NCBI GenBank assembly: GCA_029984855.1
Contig: JARQZL010000002.1
Span: 1-53,667, forward strand
From: Archaeoglobales archaeon
GTDB taxonomy: Archaea; Halobacteriota; Archaeoglobi; Archaeoglobales; Archaeoglobaceae
Reading direction: 5' to 3'
DNA: 53,667 bases
The notes below the pieces were generated by a model that worked only from the letters and a program-made list of their open reading frames with translations, did no database searches and was not told the origin of the DNA. Each line of letters opens with the position of its first letter. Position 1 is the first letter of the stretch. Below, piece after piece: positions 43,059-48,783 of this stretch. Position numbers and translations under genes: made by a program.

Positions 43059-43745
43059 ATGAGGATCTGCATTTATCAGATGGAGGACAGGGGGAGCGTT
43101 GGGGATAACATCAGGGCTGCATGCAAAATCATACCAAAGGTGAAAGCAGATTTTCTCTGCTTTCCAGAATTCTTTGCTCTTCCCGCAGGCCATTTAAATC
43201 CCGTGAAAAGAGCTTATGAGGAGAGCAGACATGCACTGGACGAAGTTGCCAGAGCAGGTAAAGAATTCAGCGGATATATCATAGCAGGAAGCGTTATCGA
43301 GAAAGGCAATGCATTTTACAACACGTGTTATGTGCTCAGAAAAGGGGAAATCGTTGCAAAATACAGGAAAATCAATATTACCGAAGAAGAAAAGCTTGCG
43401 GGTATCTCTCCAGGAAAAGAGACGGTTGTATTCGATACGGAGTTCTGCAGAAGCGGTCTGCTTGTCTGTGCAGACTGCCTTAATGATGAAACCGTGAAAA
43501 GCGTCGCAAGCAGAAGCGATGTCGTCTTTCTCCCGATCTCTCTTACATCCCCCCACCATCCAAAGACTGAGGGGCACCCGGTATCAGAGCGCATAGCGAG
43601 AGAGTATGGTGTGACAGTTGTAAAGGCTTCCAGAATTGGCCTGTTCAACGGCATGAAGTTTGGTGTTAAAAGTGCTGTTGTCATGCCAGGCAGAATTGTA
43701 GAGGCAAGCAGCACAGAAGAGGAGATTATCTGCATAACTCTTTAA
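43059..43745 (+). CDS. Nitrilase-superfamily carbon-nitrogen hydrolase
   Basis: This 228-residue protein has the nitrilase triad: Glu in FLCFPEFFALP, Lys in AKYRKINI, and Cys in LLVCADCLND. It should hydrolyse an amide or nitrile; the substrate is not evident. It is shorter than most members (about 260-300). TATA-like ATTTTAAAAG about 28 bases upstream of ATG 43059 and no ribosome site suggest a leaderless mRNA. Confidence 0.85.
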   Translation: MRICIYQMEDRGSVGDNIRAACKIIPKVKADFLCFPEFFALPAGHLNPVKRAYEESRHALDEVARAGKEFSGYIIAGSVIEKGNAFYNTCYVLRKGEIVAKYRKINITEEEKLAGISPGKETVVFDTEFCRSGLLVCADCLNDETVKSVASRSDVVFLPISLTSPHHPKTEGHPVSERIAREYGVTVVKASRIGLFNGMKFGVKSAVVMPGRIVEASSTEEEIICITL

Positions 43746-43804: not shown

Positions 43805-45412
43805 ATGAAAGAAAGGATTGGTTTCTGGGAGGCTTTCAGCATAGGCGTTGGAGGGATGATCGGTGGAGGCATATTTGCTGTTCTGGGCTTGAGTATTCAG
43901 TTATCCAAAAGCGGTGCCCCATTAGCTTTTCTTTTAGCTGGACTTGTAGCTCTGGCAACTGCCTATTCCTACGCCAGACTGTCCGTGAGATATCCGAGTG
44001 AGGGGGGAACAATAGAATTCATTACGAGAGCATACGGAACCGGTTTGCTTTCTGGCACCCTCAATGTGCTGCTGCTTGCAAGCTACATCATCATGATATC
44101 CCTATACGCCTATGCTTTCGGCAGCTATGGTGCAAACGTTCTCAACTTCATAGATCCTGTTTTGGCAAAGCATCTGCTGATAACGTTCGTTGTTGTTTTG
44201 TTCACAGCAATAAATGCTCTCGGGGCTGTTATCAGCGGAAAGACCGAAGATGCACTTGTAGCATTTAAGCTCGCCATACTTTTAATCGTGGCCTCTGCCT
44301 GCATGGCCTCTATAAATTCCGCCAAACTTTCACAGTCAAACTGGGCAGATCCGTTGAGTATTGTTGCCGGAGGGATGATAATATTTCTTGCGTATGAAGG
44401 TTTCGAACTGATAGCAAATACGGGAAGTGATATTGAGGATCCCTCGATTCTCCCTAAGGTATTTTACTCTGCTGTTCTTCTCGTAATAGCTGTTTACATA
44501 ATGGTGGCGATTGCCACGGTTGGAAGTCTACCGTATGACGTGATTATAAAGGCAAGAGACTATGCTCTGGCAGTTGCAGCAGAGCCATCTCTGGGAAAAA
44601 CAGGGTTCTGGCTTGTCACTGTTGCCGCTCTCGCATCCACAGGCTCGGCAATAAACGCAACTCTCTACGGCACTGCAAGAGCAAGTTATATGGTGGCAAA
44701 ATATGGGGAGCTTCCCGAGGCTGTTGAGGAGCCCCTCTGGAGGCAGGCTTATGAGGGTCTGCTTATCATAGGCTTTCTTTCTTTGATACTGGCAAATACT
44801 GCAAGTCTTGAGTCAATATCCGTAGCCGGCAGCAGTGGCTTCCTGCTAATCTTTCTCTCCGTCAACATCGCAGCGTTAAAGCTCCGTGATAGAATCAAGA
44901 TAAATCCGTTAATTCCGGCCGGAGGGAGCATGCTGACTCTTGCTGCTCTCATTATACTAATACACAGAATGGCAGGTACCGACATAAGAAATCTCATTGT
45001 TTTTGTTTGCCTGATCGTCTCATCTTTTTTGATTGAGATAATCTACAGAGCCGTTACAGGCAGAAAGATAGAGGAATACCTCGACATAAGACTGAAAAGG
45101 AGAGAGGAGAATGTACAAAACTGGGGGAGGTGGGTTTACACCGTTATCGATCGTATAATGGATGCTTTTGAGGATGCAGAAGTGTACCTTGTAGGCAGCA
45201 TTGCAAGAGGTGAAGTTCACAGGGCAAACGACGTTGATCTGCTCGTCCTTACAGATAACCCTCCACCAAAAGAGGTAGAAAAAAGTGTTACAAGAGAGGT
45301 TAAACAAAAGGCCGGGCTTACACCCCTGCATTCGGTTGACATTCACTTTGAAAACAAGCAGAAAAAGAAAGAGGCACTCAGACGGGCAAAGCATTACAGG
45401 TTCCTGAAATAG
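43805..45412 (+). CDS. APC-family amino-acid permease fused to a nucleotidyltransferase domain
   Basis: This 535-residue protein has two parts in one continuous frame. Residues 1-418 are an amino acid-polyamine-organocation transporter with about 12 membrane segments (first: GFWEAFSIGVGGMIGGGIFA, the substrate-site GGMIGGGIF motif). Residues 435-535 form a cytoplasmic nucleotidyltransferase-like domain: YLVGSIARGEV (G464, S465), DVDLLVL (D476, D478) and a third acidic site near D512 (HSVDIHFE). That is the full catalytic pattern of minimal nucleotidyltransferases. Regulatory C-terminal domains on APC carriers are common (USP type), but this one is unusual. Neither substrate is known. Confidence 0.88.
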   Translation: MKERIGFWEAFSIGVGGMIGGGIFAVLGLSIQLSKSGAPLAFLLAGLVALATAYSYARLSVRYPSEGGTIEFITRAYGTGLLSGTLNVLLLASYIIMISLYAYAFGSYGANVLNFIDPVLAKHLLITFVVVLFTAINALGAVISGKTEDALVAFKLAILLIVASACMASINSAKLSQSNWADPLSIVAGGMIIFLAYEGFELIANTGSDIEDPSILPKVFYSAVLLVIAVYIMVAIATVGSLPYDVIIKARDYALAVAAEPSLGKTGFWLVTVAALASTGSAINATLYGTARASYMVAKYGELPEAVEEPLWRQAYEGLLIIGFLSLILANTASLESISVAGSSGFLLIFLSVNIAALKLRDRIKINPLIPAGGSMLTLAALIILIHRMAGTDIRNLIVFVCLIVSSFLIEIIYRAVTGRKIEEYLDIRLKRREENVQNWGRWVYTVIDRIMDAFEDAEVYLVGSIARGEVHRANDVDLLVLTDNPPPKEVEKSVTREVKQKAGLTPLHSVDIHFENKQKKKEALRRAKHYRFLK

Positions 45413-45418
45413 AGAGCT

Positions 45419-46633
45419 CTAAGAACCCTCCAGCAATAAGCTGTCAAGCTCCTTTAAAAGCTGGCCAACGCTGCCTATGGATTTTGCATCAATTCCCAGT
45501 TTTCTGAGCTCATCTTTGCTTCTCAAACTGATCACGTTGCTGGATGAGTTCAGCAGTTCCAGATTTCTCCTGTTTATGCTGCCAACGATGAAGCCAGTAT
45601 CGATGACCAGGTCACTGATTTTGGCAAGTTTTAGGGCCCTCTCAAACGCCCTTTCACCTATCTCAGTATAGGGCTCCTCACACACTGCTTTGGCGGCTAT
45701 GAGTCTGGCAACACAGCAATCAACATCACCTTCGTGAACAACTCCGGCTGTGAAAGGGACGCCTTTCTTGGCCAGCAGTCGCATGACGTTCGCTCCGCTC
45801 CCCCCTCCACAGACGATGTGAACTTTTGCATCAGTATCTTTTCTGCCTGTTATTTCAAAAGAGCCGATGGACGGATCAAACCTTGCACTGCCTATCTCGT
45901 ATACATCCCGCACAACATCTTCTGATATTGCCTCTTCCGGATGTCCCTCCACGACTATTTTCCCATTTCTTATCATAACAACTCTATCACATACCCTCAG
46001 TGCAAGCTCAATATCATGAGTTGTGAGCACTATCGCAATCCCCTTCTCATTTGCTATTCTGCGGAGCAGCAGCATTATCTCGACCTTGTGTTTTGCATCG
46101 AGAAAGCTCGTTGGCTCGTCAAGGAGCATGATGCGAGGCTGCTGGGCTAAGGCTCTTGCTATCATTATTTTCTGTCTCTCTCCATCGCTCATCTCAGAGA
46201 ACAGTTTATTTGCGAGATTTTCGGCATTTACGAGTTTGAGAGCTTCTCTCACAGCATTAACATCAGCATTATTGAGTCTGCCAAAGGCATCGACGTACGG
46301 ATACCTGCCCAGACTCACCACTTCAAATCCTGTAAGGAAGCCGGCATCAACTCTTTCAGTAAGCGTTATGGAGAGCAGCTTTGCAAGCTCTATTGGCTTT
46401 ATCTCATGAATTTTTCTGCTCTCAACGTAAACAACGCCTTTCAGGGGCTTCAGATTTGCTGCAAGAGTTTTGAGCAGAGTTGTCTTTCCACTACCGTTTG
46501 GGCCGAGAATGCCAAGAATTTCTCCAGCTCTGGCTTTAAGAAAGACATTTCTCAGAACTTCACTTGTGTAGCCAACGGACAGTTCAGCCGTTTTCATTCT
46601 TTCGTTGGCCTTCACTTCCATTTCCGTCCTCAT
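45419..46633 (-). CDS. Corrinoid/iron-chelate ABC importer ATPase with C-terminal domain
   Basis: This 404-residue ATPase has a normal FecE/BtuD-like NBD in residues 1-250 (Walker A GPNGSGKTT, signature MSDGERQKIMIARAL, Walker B IMLLDEPTS) and an extra domain of about 150 residues (VHIVCGGGSGANVMRLLAKK...). Such extensions are known on archaeal cobalamin-type ATPases; their role is unclear. I chose ATG 46633 because GAGGTG lies six bases upstream; GTG 46642 and ATG 46597 are alternatives. It is the last gene of a three-gene importer. Confidence 0.88.
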   Translation of the reverse strand: MRTEMEVKANERMKTAELSVGYTSEVLRNVFLKARAGEILGILGPNGSGKTTLLKTLAANLKPLKGVVYVESRKIHEIKPIELAKLLSITLTERVDAGFLTGFEVVSLGRYPYVDAFGRLNNADVNAVREALKLVNAENLANKLFSEMSDGERQKIMIARALAQQPRIMLLDEPTSFLDAKHKVEIMLLLRRIANEKGIAIVLTTHDIELALRVCDRVVMIRNGKIVVEGHPEEAISEDVVRDVYEIGSARFDPSIGSFEITGRKDTDAKVHIVCGGGSGANVMRLLAKKGVPFTAGVVHEGDVDCCVARLIAAKAVCEEPYTEIGERAFERALKLAKISDLVIDTGFIVGSINRRNLELLNSSSNVISLRSKDELRKLGIDAKSIGSVGQLLKELDSLLLEGS

Positions 46634-46655
46634 CTTATTCACCTCATTTCAGGCA

Positions 46656-47627
46656 TCACACCTTCTTCCTCTTCAAAACAAGAAATATGACGATTGGAGC
46701 GCCAAATATCGACGTTATCACACTCACAGGCAGTTCAACTGGAGAGAGAAGTGTTCTCGCAACCACGTCACATAACACTGCAATCGATGCCCCGAGCAGG
46801 ATCGTCGCAGGAATTAAGATTCTGTGGTCTGAAGTTCTGAACAGCAGCCTTGCAATGTGTGGCGTTGCAAGCCCTATGAAAGCAACAACGCCTGAAAAAG
46901 CCGTTACAAGGGATGCAAGAAAGCTCGAGACTGCAACAACAGTAACCCTCACAACTCTTATATCGACACCCATGCTCCTCGCATAATCTTCTCCCAGCAG
47001 CATTGCATTGAGGGGCTTTGATAGCAGGAATGTGAGCACAAAAACTGGGATCGAAAGGGTGACAATAGCCCGCAAATCGTTCCATGTTGTCCCTGAAAAG
47101 CTGCCAAATGTCCACAGAACAAACTCATGAACCCTCTCGCTCTCAGCAAGAGTTATCAGAATCCTCTCGAAGGCTGAAAATACATAGCCGAGCATTAAGC
47201 CTGCGATGAGCAGTGTTACAGCACTTCTAACCCTTGCGGCGATATACAGAATAAGAATGGTTGCTATTGCCGAACCTGCAAAAGCTGAGCCCACAATTCC
47301 ATAGCCTCCTCCAATGCCAGCGAGTACATAGAGAGCAACACCAAAAGCCGCTGCCGAAGATATACCGAGAACGTACGGGCCTGCAAGGGGGTTGCGGAAG
47401 TACGTCTGCAAAAGCAAACCGCTGACAGCCAAAGCAGCACCTCCAAAAAATGCTCCGAGCGTTCGGGGCATGCGAACATTCAGAATTATGTAGCCCTTCA
47501 TATTCTCCTTACCATGCAGCGAATCCATCAGGTCTCCAATACCTGCATTTACCGAACCTATGAGTATTCCGGAAAGGATAGAAAGAATAGCAATAAAAGA
47601 TAAAAGAGCAAAAAAGATGGCTCTCAT
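46656..47627 (-). CDS. FecCD/BtuC-type ABC permease
   Basis: This 323-residue permease has about ten membrane segments. The blocks RMPRTLGAFFGGAALAVSGL near the N terminus, NPLAGPYVLGISSAAAFGV, and VAFIGLATPHIARLLF near the C terminus are family marks. It starts one base after the binding-protein stop. It forms the channel for a corrinoid, heme or iron complex; the ligand cannot be fixed by sequence. Confidence 0.93.
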   Translation of the reverse strand: MRAIFFALLSFIAILSILSGILIGSVNAGIGDLMDSLHGKENMKGYIILNVRMPRTLGAFFGGAALAVSGLLLQTYFRNPLAGPYVLGISSAAAFGVALYVLAGIGGGYGIVGSAFAGSAIATILILYIAARVRSAVTLLIAGLMLGYVFSAFERILITLAESERVHEFVLWTFGSFSGTTWNDLRAIVTLSIPVFVLTFLLSKPLNAMLLGEDYARSMGVDIRVVRVTVVAVSSFLASLVTAFSGVVAFIGLATPHIARLLFRTSDHRILIPATILLGASIAVLCDVVARTLLSPVELPVSVITSIFGAPIVIFLVLKRKKV

Positions 47628-47628
47628 C

Positions 47629-48717
47629 CTACGACAGCCTTACAAAGAACCTTGGAGTGTAATTCTCAAAAAGCTCTGGATGTGCTATCGCTGCAAGATC
47701 CTTGATTACAACGTCTTCATGCAGCAACCCGAGCTGCCAGTAATCGGGAGTTATGTTGTAAATTCTCCTCTCCTCAAACACCTTAAGGTCTGCAAGCCTG
47801 CTGTCTATATCCCTGATGTCCTTTAAGCTCTTGACCGTTGAAGAGTAGACCATTACATCAGCATTCTCACCCTTTACAAGCAAATCCTCGAGACTTACGA
47901 TTTTACTGCCCGTACCAGACATGTTAAAGAGGTAGTTGCAGCCAGCGTATTCAGCCATCTTCGCAACGTAACTATCTCCTCCCGGAACGTACACCTTGCC
48001 CCTGTATACCGATGCCCACAGGAGGTTTACCCTCTCTGTCGAATTTACTCTGTCCTCCACTGCTTTAACGTTCTCTTCAATCCTGCTGAAGTACTTTGCC
48101 GCTTCATCTTCCTTATCGAGTAAGGCTGCAAAGAACTTGACCCACTCAACCCTTGCAAGCGGGTCTTTTTCGAGCCACTCACCGTTAGCAATGCACGGAA
48201 TACCCAGTTCCTCAAGTTTTTTCTCGACCTCCCCGTTATATCCAGAAACACAGACCACAAGGTCAGGATGGAGCTCTACGAGCTTCTCATAATCTGGAGC
48301 TCCTGAAGAACCAAGATCGATGATTTCTCCCTTTTTGAGTTTCTCCACAATATCTGGGAAGTAAAGCCTGTATCCTCCCCCATACATGTATCCAGCGACA
48401 CAGTCTGTTGCATTTATCGCCTCAAGCAAAGCAAGATGCGTTGAAGAAGTTACAACAATCCTCTTAACTGGAATTTTAATCGGTATTCCTTCTACATCCG
48501 GCTTTTTGTCGTGATATAGAACATAAGTCTTCCAGATGTCACCGTCCTTTACCTTCAGAATCTTATAATCTCCGTGGTAATCTATGGCAAAATTCTCCGC
48601 ATACTTCACGTTCTTCAAAGCAGACTGCTGCTTTTCAGCGCATCCTGCTACGACAACAGACGCAACGACAGCAAGCACAATTATCGCAATAAAACTCTTA
48701 TTCGATATCATTGACAT
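47629..48717 (-). CDS. Periplasmic-binding lipoprotein of the corrinoid/iron importer
   Basis: This is a TroA/BtuF-fold protein of about 360 residues. It has a lipoprotein signal (NKSFIAIIVLAVVASVVVAGC) and then two lobes: RIVVTSSTHLALLEAINAT, LVELHPDLVVCVSGY, and later VNLLWASVYRGKVYVPGGDS. ATG 48717 or 48711 gives a proper signal; the frame back to 48759 does not. The TATA at 48731-48740 (minus) places the transcription start near these ATGs. Ligand could be cobalamin, heme or a chelated metal. Confidence 0.88.
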   Translation of the reverse strand: MSMISNKSFIAIIVLAVVASVVVAGCAEKQQSALKNVKYAENFAIDYHGDYKILKVKDGDIWKTYVLYHDKKPDVEGIPIKIPVKRIVVTSSTHLALLEAINATDCVAGYMYGGGYRLYFPDIVEKLKKGEIIDLGSSGAPDYEKLVELHPDLVVCVSGYNGEVEKKLEELGIPCIANGEWLEKDPLARVEWVKFFAALLDKEDEAAKYFSRIEENVKAVEDRVNSTERVNLLWASVYRGKVYVPGGDSYVAKMAEYAGCNYLFNMSGTGSKIVSLEDLLVKGENADVMVYSSTVKSLKDIRDIDSRLADLKVFEERRIYNITPDYWQLGLLHEDVVIKDLAAIAHPELFENYTPRFFVRLS

Positions 48718-48730
48718 TGCATCAAACCTG

Positions 48731-48783
48731 CTTGATATAAGGATTTCGATTGTCACCATTCGTGAAAGATATAAATATATATC
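48731..48783. promoter_or_regulatory. Divergent promoters of the importer and the HD gene
   Basis: On the minus strand CTTATATCAAG at 48731-48740 faces the binding-protein gene. On the plus strand GATATAAATATATATC at 48767-48782 faces the HD gene (ATG 48804, about 28 bases). The latter is itself a near-palindrome. Both starts fit leaderless or near-leaderless mRNAs. Confidence 0.5.

Follow-up and report, generated by a model that had tools for sequence, protein, structure and literature searches.

ApcT of Methanocaldococcus jannaschii (MJ0609; structures 3gi9, 3gia and 3gi8) is a Na+-independent, proton-coupled amino-acid transporter whose Lys158 has been implicated in proton coupling (PMC12764776). 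Minimal nucleotidyltransferases (MNTs) are typified by MntA of the type VII HEPN-MNT toxin-antitoxin system MntA/HepT (7bxo, 5yep), in which AMP transfer requires a GSX10DXD motif and two Mg ions are coordinated by D39 and D41 together with a third acid, D71 (PMC7641770); archaeal members of this kind include AF0614 (1ylq), with Glu at the third-ligand position, and 2rff of Sulfolobus solfataricus, both of them stand-alone proteins. Domestication of one-time toxin-antitoxin modules as regulatory nucleotidyltransferases is described in a review of the HEPN superfamily, whose passages on the subject name no transporter fusion (PMC3710099). That a nucleotide can act on a carrier of the APC superfamily from the cytosolic side is illustrated by KimA, a proton-coupled K+ transporter (KUP/APC) trapped in an inward-occluded state by c-di-AMP on its C-terminal cytosolic domain (PMC10284832).

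The locus described here joins relatives of two of these systems in one protein. The window, a stretch of 53,667 nucleotides from an Archaeoglobales archaeon (assembly GCA_029984855.1, contig JARQZL010000002.1), contains a gene that an earlier note, made from the letters alone, had described as an APC carrier of about 12 membrane segments continuing in frame into a nucleotidyltransferase domain. The gene is a single uninterrupted frame of 535 codons with an ATG start, encoding 535 amino acids (Table 1), and Pfam assigns AA_permease_2 to residues 5-384 (E 1.5e-29) and NTP_transf_2 to residues 450-526 (E 2.3e-10, or 9.6e-12 with the tail alone), both far above the curated cut-offs, so that the domain search proposed in the note returned the expected family. 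An AlphaFold2 model built from 48 homologs (pLDDT 89.7, pTM 0.89) comprises twelve long helices followed by a small alpha/beta domain; the pTM value hints that permease and tail are placed in a definite way relative to one another in the predicted structure. Between them lie joining helices in which R433, E434, W440 and W443 are nearly invariant among aligned homologs. Both halves are of known kinds, the permease being related to ApcT and the tail to MNTs. A search of the open-access literature on the fusion and on both domain families recovered no publication on the fusion, in keeping with the note's statement that it knew of no described system of this kind.

Table 1. Coordinates of the fused gene and its features within the window
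Feature	Position	Strand	Basis
ApcT-like permease plus minimal nucleotidyltransferase, whole fused gene	43805..45412	+	open frame, Pfam, AlphaFold2
Permease domain, residues 1-417, 12 helices, APC/LeuT fold	43805..45055	+	phmmer, Foldseek
K155 codon, equivalent of ApcT K158	44267..44269	+	pairwise alignment; invariant in 48-row alignment A1
Joining helices, residues 428-445	45086..45139	+	alignments; AlphaFold2 helices 428-438 and 440-454
Minimal nucleotidyltransferase domain (NTP_transf_2 450-526; fold reaches C-terminus)	45152..45409	+	Pfam, tail-only model, Foldseek
GSX10DXD motif, G464 S465 ... D476 V477 D478	45194..45238	+	counts in 50 homologs
D512-I-H514, third metal-ligand position and near-invariant His	45338..45346	+	homolog counts, tree, strand 511-517 in AlphaFold2

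The gene directly upstream in the same direction (43059-43745, +) encodes a nitrilase-superfamily amidohydrolase (CN_hydrolase, 1.9e-16), a pairing that is not conserved at other fused loci. On the opposite strand, positions 45419-46642 encode the ABC ATPase of a FecCD/periplasmic-binding-protein operon (46656-48759); this ATPase is extended at its C-terminus by about 180 residues, to which no separate Pfam family could be assigned.

Sequence and structural comparisons agree in assigning to the permease half a 12-helix APC/LeuT fold close to that of ApcT: phmmer aligned it to MJ0609 at 8e-62, and in Foldseek the whole model matched 3gi9 (E 1.6e-25, about 33% identity, TM 0.91 over the target), with the lysine of ApcT retained. 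On these grounds we read the permease half as a predicted proton-coupled amino-acid importer. Unlike the fusion, the 444-residue ApcT chain aligns to the permease only (3-417 to 6-422) and leaves no room for a nucleotidyltransferase tail. Because the related LysP has 12 helices with both the N- and C-termini inside, the nucleotidyltransferase domain would be placed, by homology, in the cytosol at the inner end of helix 12. Fifteen positions separate fused from unfused permeases, of which five lie in cytosolic loops, no significant excess over the roughly 2.8 expected. Position 300 lies on the cytosolic side, in the segment that links helices 8 and 9; 43 of 50 fused permeases have Tyr there and unfused ones mostly Asp or Glu; the position is Phe in one clade with Asp at the third metal-ligand position of the tail (Asp-type) and Leu, Ile or Met in one clade with His there (His-type). 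The Phe-bearing Asp-type clade led us to reject Tyr300 as a universal AMP acceptor and leaves this residue with the status of a candidate contact, not that of an established acceptor. Long APC carriers (740-790 amino acids) encoded in the same genomes resemble the fusion in having a long C-terminal extension, but represent a separate permease family, about 30% identical, with a different tail; we presume that extension to be USP, by analogy with known APC-USP proteins, and the carrier at L016:3078-4577 looks like one.

The tail has the nucleotidyltransferase fold and the GSX10DXD motif of minimal nucleotidyltransferases of the pol-beta superfamily. Modeled alone (pLDDT 91.7), it retrieved 1ylq, 2rff and MntA 7bxo in Foldseek (E 1.8e-3 to 3.5e-3, probability 1.00); these values are modest for a domain of 118 residues, yet all nine best matches are MNTs, and the archaeal proteins 1ylq and 2rff are its best structure and profile matches. 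No NCBIfam model for the MntA, GlnD or CCA families scored past its cut-off: the MntA model NF047752 gave 21.2 bits against a cut-off of 60, GlnD models gave superfamily-level matches only, at 14-18 bits against cut-offs above 500, and GlnE models gave no match, so that the protein did not pass as a GlnD/GlnE regulatory enzyme by family-level similarity and companion domains. PADLOC likewise returned weak matches only (best E 6e-5), to a candidate defence system whose models also match stand-alone MNTs, and a defence-system reading was set aside.

The active site, in which the tail reads EVYLVGSIARGEVHRANDVDLLVL ... HSVDIHF, reproduces in G464-S465-X10-D476-V-D478 ... D512-I-H514 the exact GSX10DXD of MntA adenylyltransferases together with a third acid. 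D512 lies at the distance of the MntA third acid and on a strand as expected, and is expected by position and fold, rather than by direct superposition, to be the counterpart of MntA D71. Among 50 fused homologs G464 is present in all, S465 in 45 (Gly in the rest), D476 in 49 and D478 in 50, and H514, on the same strand and two residues past D512, in 47. Position 512 itself is Asp in 32, His in 17 (including one truncated copy, excluded from later steps) and Arg in one. A tree built from permease columns only places eight interchanges between Asp and His at this position, at least five of them forced by well-supported branches. Asp and His codons are one base apart, as Asp codons are from those of several other residues; apart from the single Arg, those others were never seen at 512. 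This pattern fits a position that would have to hold metal or phosphate with no requirement for a carboxylate. The complete catalytic pattern claimed in the earlier note is present in the window protein, but across the family 17 of 50 homologs have His in place of the third acid. Loss of the acidic triad in orthologs, which the note had named as telling against its reading, is thus seen in part: GS and DxD are essentially invariant, while the third carboxylate interchanges with His about eight times. The nearest stand-alone MNTs have Glu at the third-ligand position (HPLEIHF, HPFEIHI), where the fusion has Asp or His. Asn occupies this position (RINIHL or RVNIHL) in a further group of stand-alone MNTs (L143, L145-L148, L152, L153, L156, L157, L159, L161, L162, L164 and L165), which had a HEPN partner at most of the loci read; loss of the third carboxylate is therefore not peculiar to the fusion.

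A scan of the genome collection revealed dozens of end-to-end homologs in Archaeoglobaceae, Desulfurococcales, Acidilobaceae and Pyrodictiaceae. In Archaeoglobaceae the permease occurs in 36 of 55 genomes, fused in 26 and unfused or in pieces in 10, as judged from open-frame lengths and with one copy bearing an internal stop (genome G012) counted among the 26; the two forms were never found in the same genome. In one class of Thermoproteota, a high-scoring tail lying within a frame of about 530 codons or more was counted in about 44 of 229 genomes, such long frames being taken as fused and the loci read individually in part. Fused copies are present in the single-contig genomes or chromosomes G001, G129, G165 and G480. 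The same continuous frame recurs across dozens of genomes that are independent of one another, several being single contigs, and this rules out chance, an assembly join or the frameshift between two genes that the earlier note had raised against itself. Bacteria, Methanolobus and other Archaeoglobi carry a 50-55% identical permease that ends near residue 420-445 and has no tail; unfused relatives in bacteria and Methanolobus often lie near a second, paralogous permease in the same direction (L080, L085, L091, L094, L099 and L110), the pair being in tandem at L080, L085, L091, L099 and L110. The interrupted copy of G012 (contig 1, about 93497-95074; L155:8095-9678) has TGA at the codon for Gly301, a residue present in all other fused permeases, with the remaining frame intact; that genome is a single contig of 2,196,266 bases, and the TGA reflects either a nonsense point mutation or an error in sequencing.

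The fusion has a single origin. All fused permeases group in a single clade of a 96-row permease tree, the sole "unfused" row within it being the stop-cut copy of G012. A 75-row tree of the tails likewise unites the fused ones in a single clade (support 99/98), whose sisters are the short MNT genes L190 and L191 (98/93), retrieved from the Thermoproteota-class search. A HEPN gene lies directly upstream of L190, L191 and others of the nearest stand-alone MNTs, and of most Archaeoglobaceae MNTs read, and nine HEPN neighbors of stand-alone MNTs were confirmed as PF05168. A W-x-x-W helix ahead of the domain is common to the fused tails and these nearest stand-alone MNTs. Taken together, the tail tree and the HEPN genes upstream of the sister MNTs indicate that one fusion event placed an antitoxin-type MNT behind a permease, which holds the place usual for HEPN. 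The likely source, as judged from sequence, is an archaeal HEPN-partnered MNT antitoxin, a more specific assignment than the GlnD/GlnE-like control of nitrogen proteins suggested earlier; of that suggestion a real and conserved fusion under purifying selection stands, and membership in the GlnD or GlnE families does not. The fusion differs from MntA/HepT in being covalently joined to a permease with no adjacent HEPN partner: no HEPN gene was found on the window's contig, although its genome contains at least seven, and around 50 fused loci no conserved operon partner, HEPN, second nucleotidyltransferase or de-modifying enzyme recurs, barring synteny of near relatives. The functional unit accordingly appears to be the single fused protein.

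The tail is under purifying selection. Where dS was measurable, tail dN/dS was well below 1 (mostly 0.01-0.25, with one pair at 0.36), in Asp-type and His-type pairs alike; the tail nevertheless generally evolves faster than the permease, and the essentially invariant GS and DxD, conserved across two phyla, stand within a domain whose remainder falls to about 30% identity. One genome (G009; L014/L053) has an eroded tail in which some of the domain before GS is gone and a TGA cuts the C-terminus, while its permease is well kept.

We put at about even odds (probability near 0.5) the reading that the fusion is a proton-coupled amino-acid importer of the ApcT type that has captured an archaeal MNT antitoxin domain as a cytosolic Mg-nucleotide switch; that in many heat-loving archaea the importer in some form carries its own built-in nucleotide switch seems probable. 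We infer a scheme in which the captured domain, cytosolic by homology, would use GS...DxD to bind Mg2+ and a nucleotide, ATP being the likeliest; the bound or modified state of the domain would then alter transport, and amino-acid import might thereby be matched to cell energy or stress. The neighbors of the 50 fused loci include none that is conserved and points to what is sensed. KimA, which works in a similar way, is a precedent for the locking of an APC-superfamily carrier by a nucleotide on its cytosolic domain, although its cytosolic domain, substrate and permease family are all different. Nucleotide binding is preferred as the conserved function since the third ligand swaps with His but the residues for binding stay fixed, a combination which argues that Mg-nucleotide binding is what the tail family retains and leaves GlnD/GlnE-like covalent modification as something possible. 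In Asp-type members, including the window protein, AMP transfer to the transporter or a partner might also occur, as from MntA to HepT. The recurrence of Asp-to-His changes could instead signify loss of any nucleotide function, though decay of GS and DxD would then be expected.

The main alternative, which we hold as a minority possibility, has the MNT domain AMPylating its own permease, a neighboring subunit or another protein and so opening or closing import. The three acids disposed as D39, D41 and D71 of MntA (PMC7641770) are as this would predict, the permease holds the 5' place of the modified HEPN partner in related gene pairs, and Tyr300 on the cytosolic side is almost specific to fused permeases; set against these are the repeated interchange that leaves His in place of the third acid in a third of homologs (17/50), the variation of Tyr300 in both an Asp-type and a His-type clade, and the want of any de-modifying enzyme linked to the fused loci. 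Covalent transfer would be most plausible in Asp-type members such as the window protein. The fuller version, an antitoxin-derived and self-contained switch in which the permease replaces the HEPN partner and is itself AMPylated (or a partner is) to gate import, we hold to be only slightly less likely. Improbable is a tail joined by chance that has lost any nucleotide function and now just stabilizes the protein or helps place it in the membrane: drift of the third ligand between Asp and His, the eroded tail of G009 (L014) and the stop within the permease part of G012 are what such a relic might display, but GS and DxD have stayed essentially invariant over two phyla in a tail otherwise at about 30% identity, and dN/dS is low. 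Least probable of all, in our estimate, is a tail that still neutralizes a HEPN toxin encoded elsewhere, with the permease as anchor or sensor; its descent from HEPN-partnered MNTs and the HEPN genes of the window's genome would accommodate this, yet none of those genes lies on the window's contig, no neighbor of the fused gene is conserved, and HEPN genes beside stand-alone MNTs are already partnered.

If the captured domain does act as a Mg-nucleotide switch, it would add a nucleotidyltransferase-type domain to the known cytosolic switches on APC carriers, and would show a toxin-antitoxin module dismantled, its antitoxin half becoming the regulatory domain of a housekeeping transporter and being retained in two archaeal phyla. 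Should AMPylation prove correct, we know of no earlier amino-acid transporter that carries its own nucleotidylating enzyme. The roughly eight replacements between Asp and His constitute a natural set with which AMP transfer by MNT domains could be told apart from nucleotide binding.
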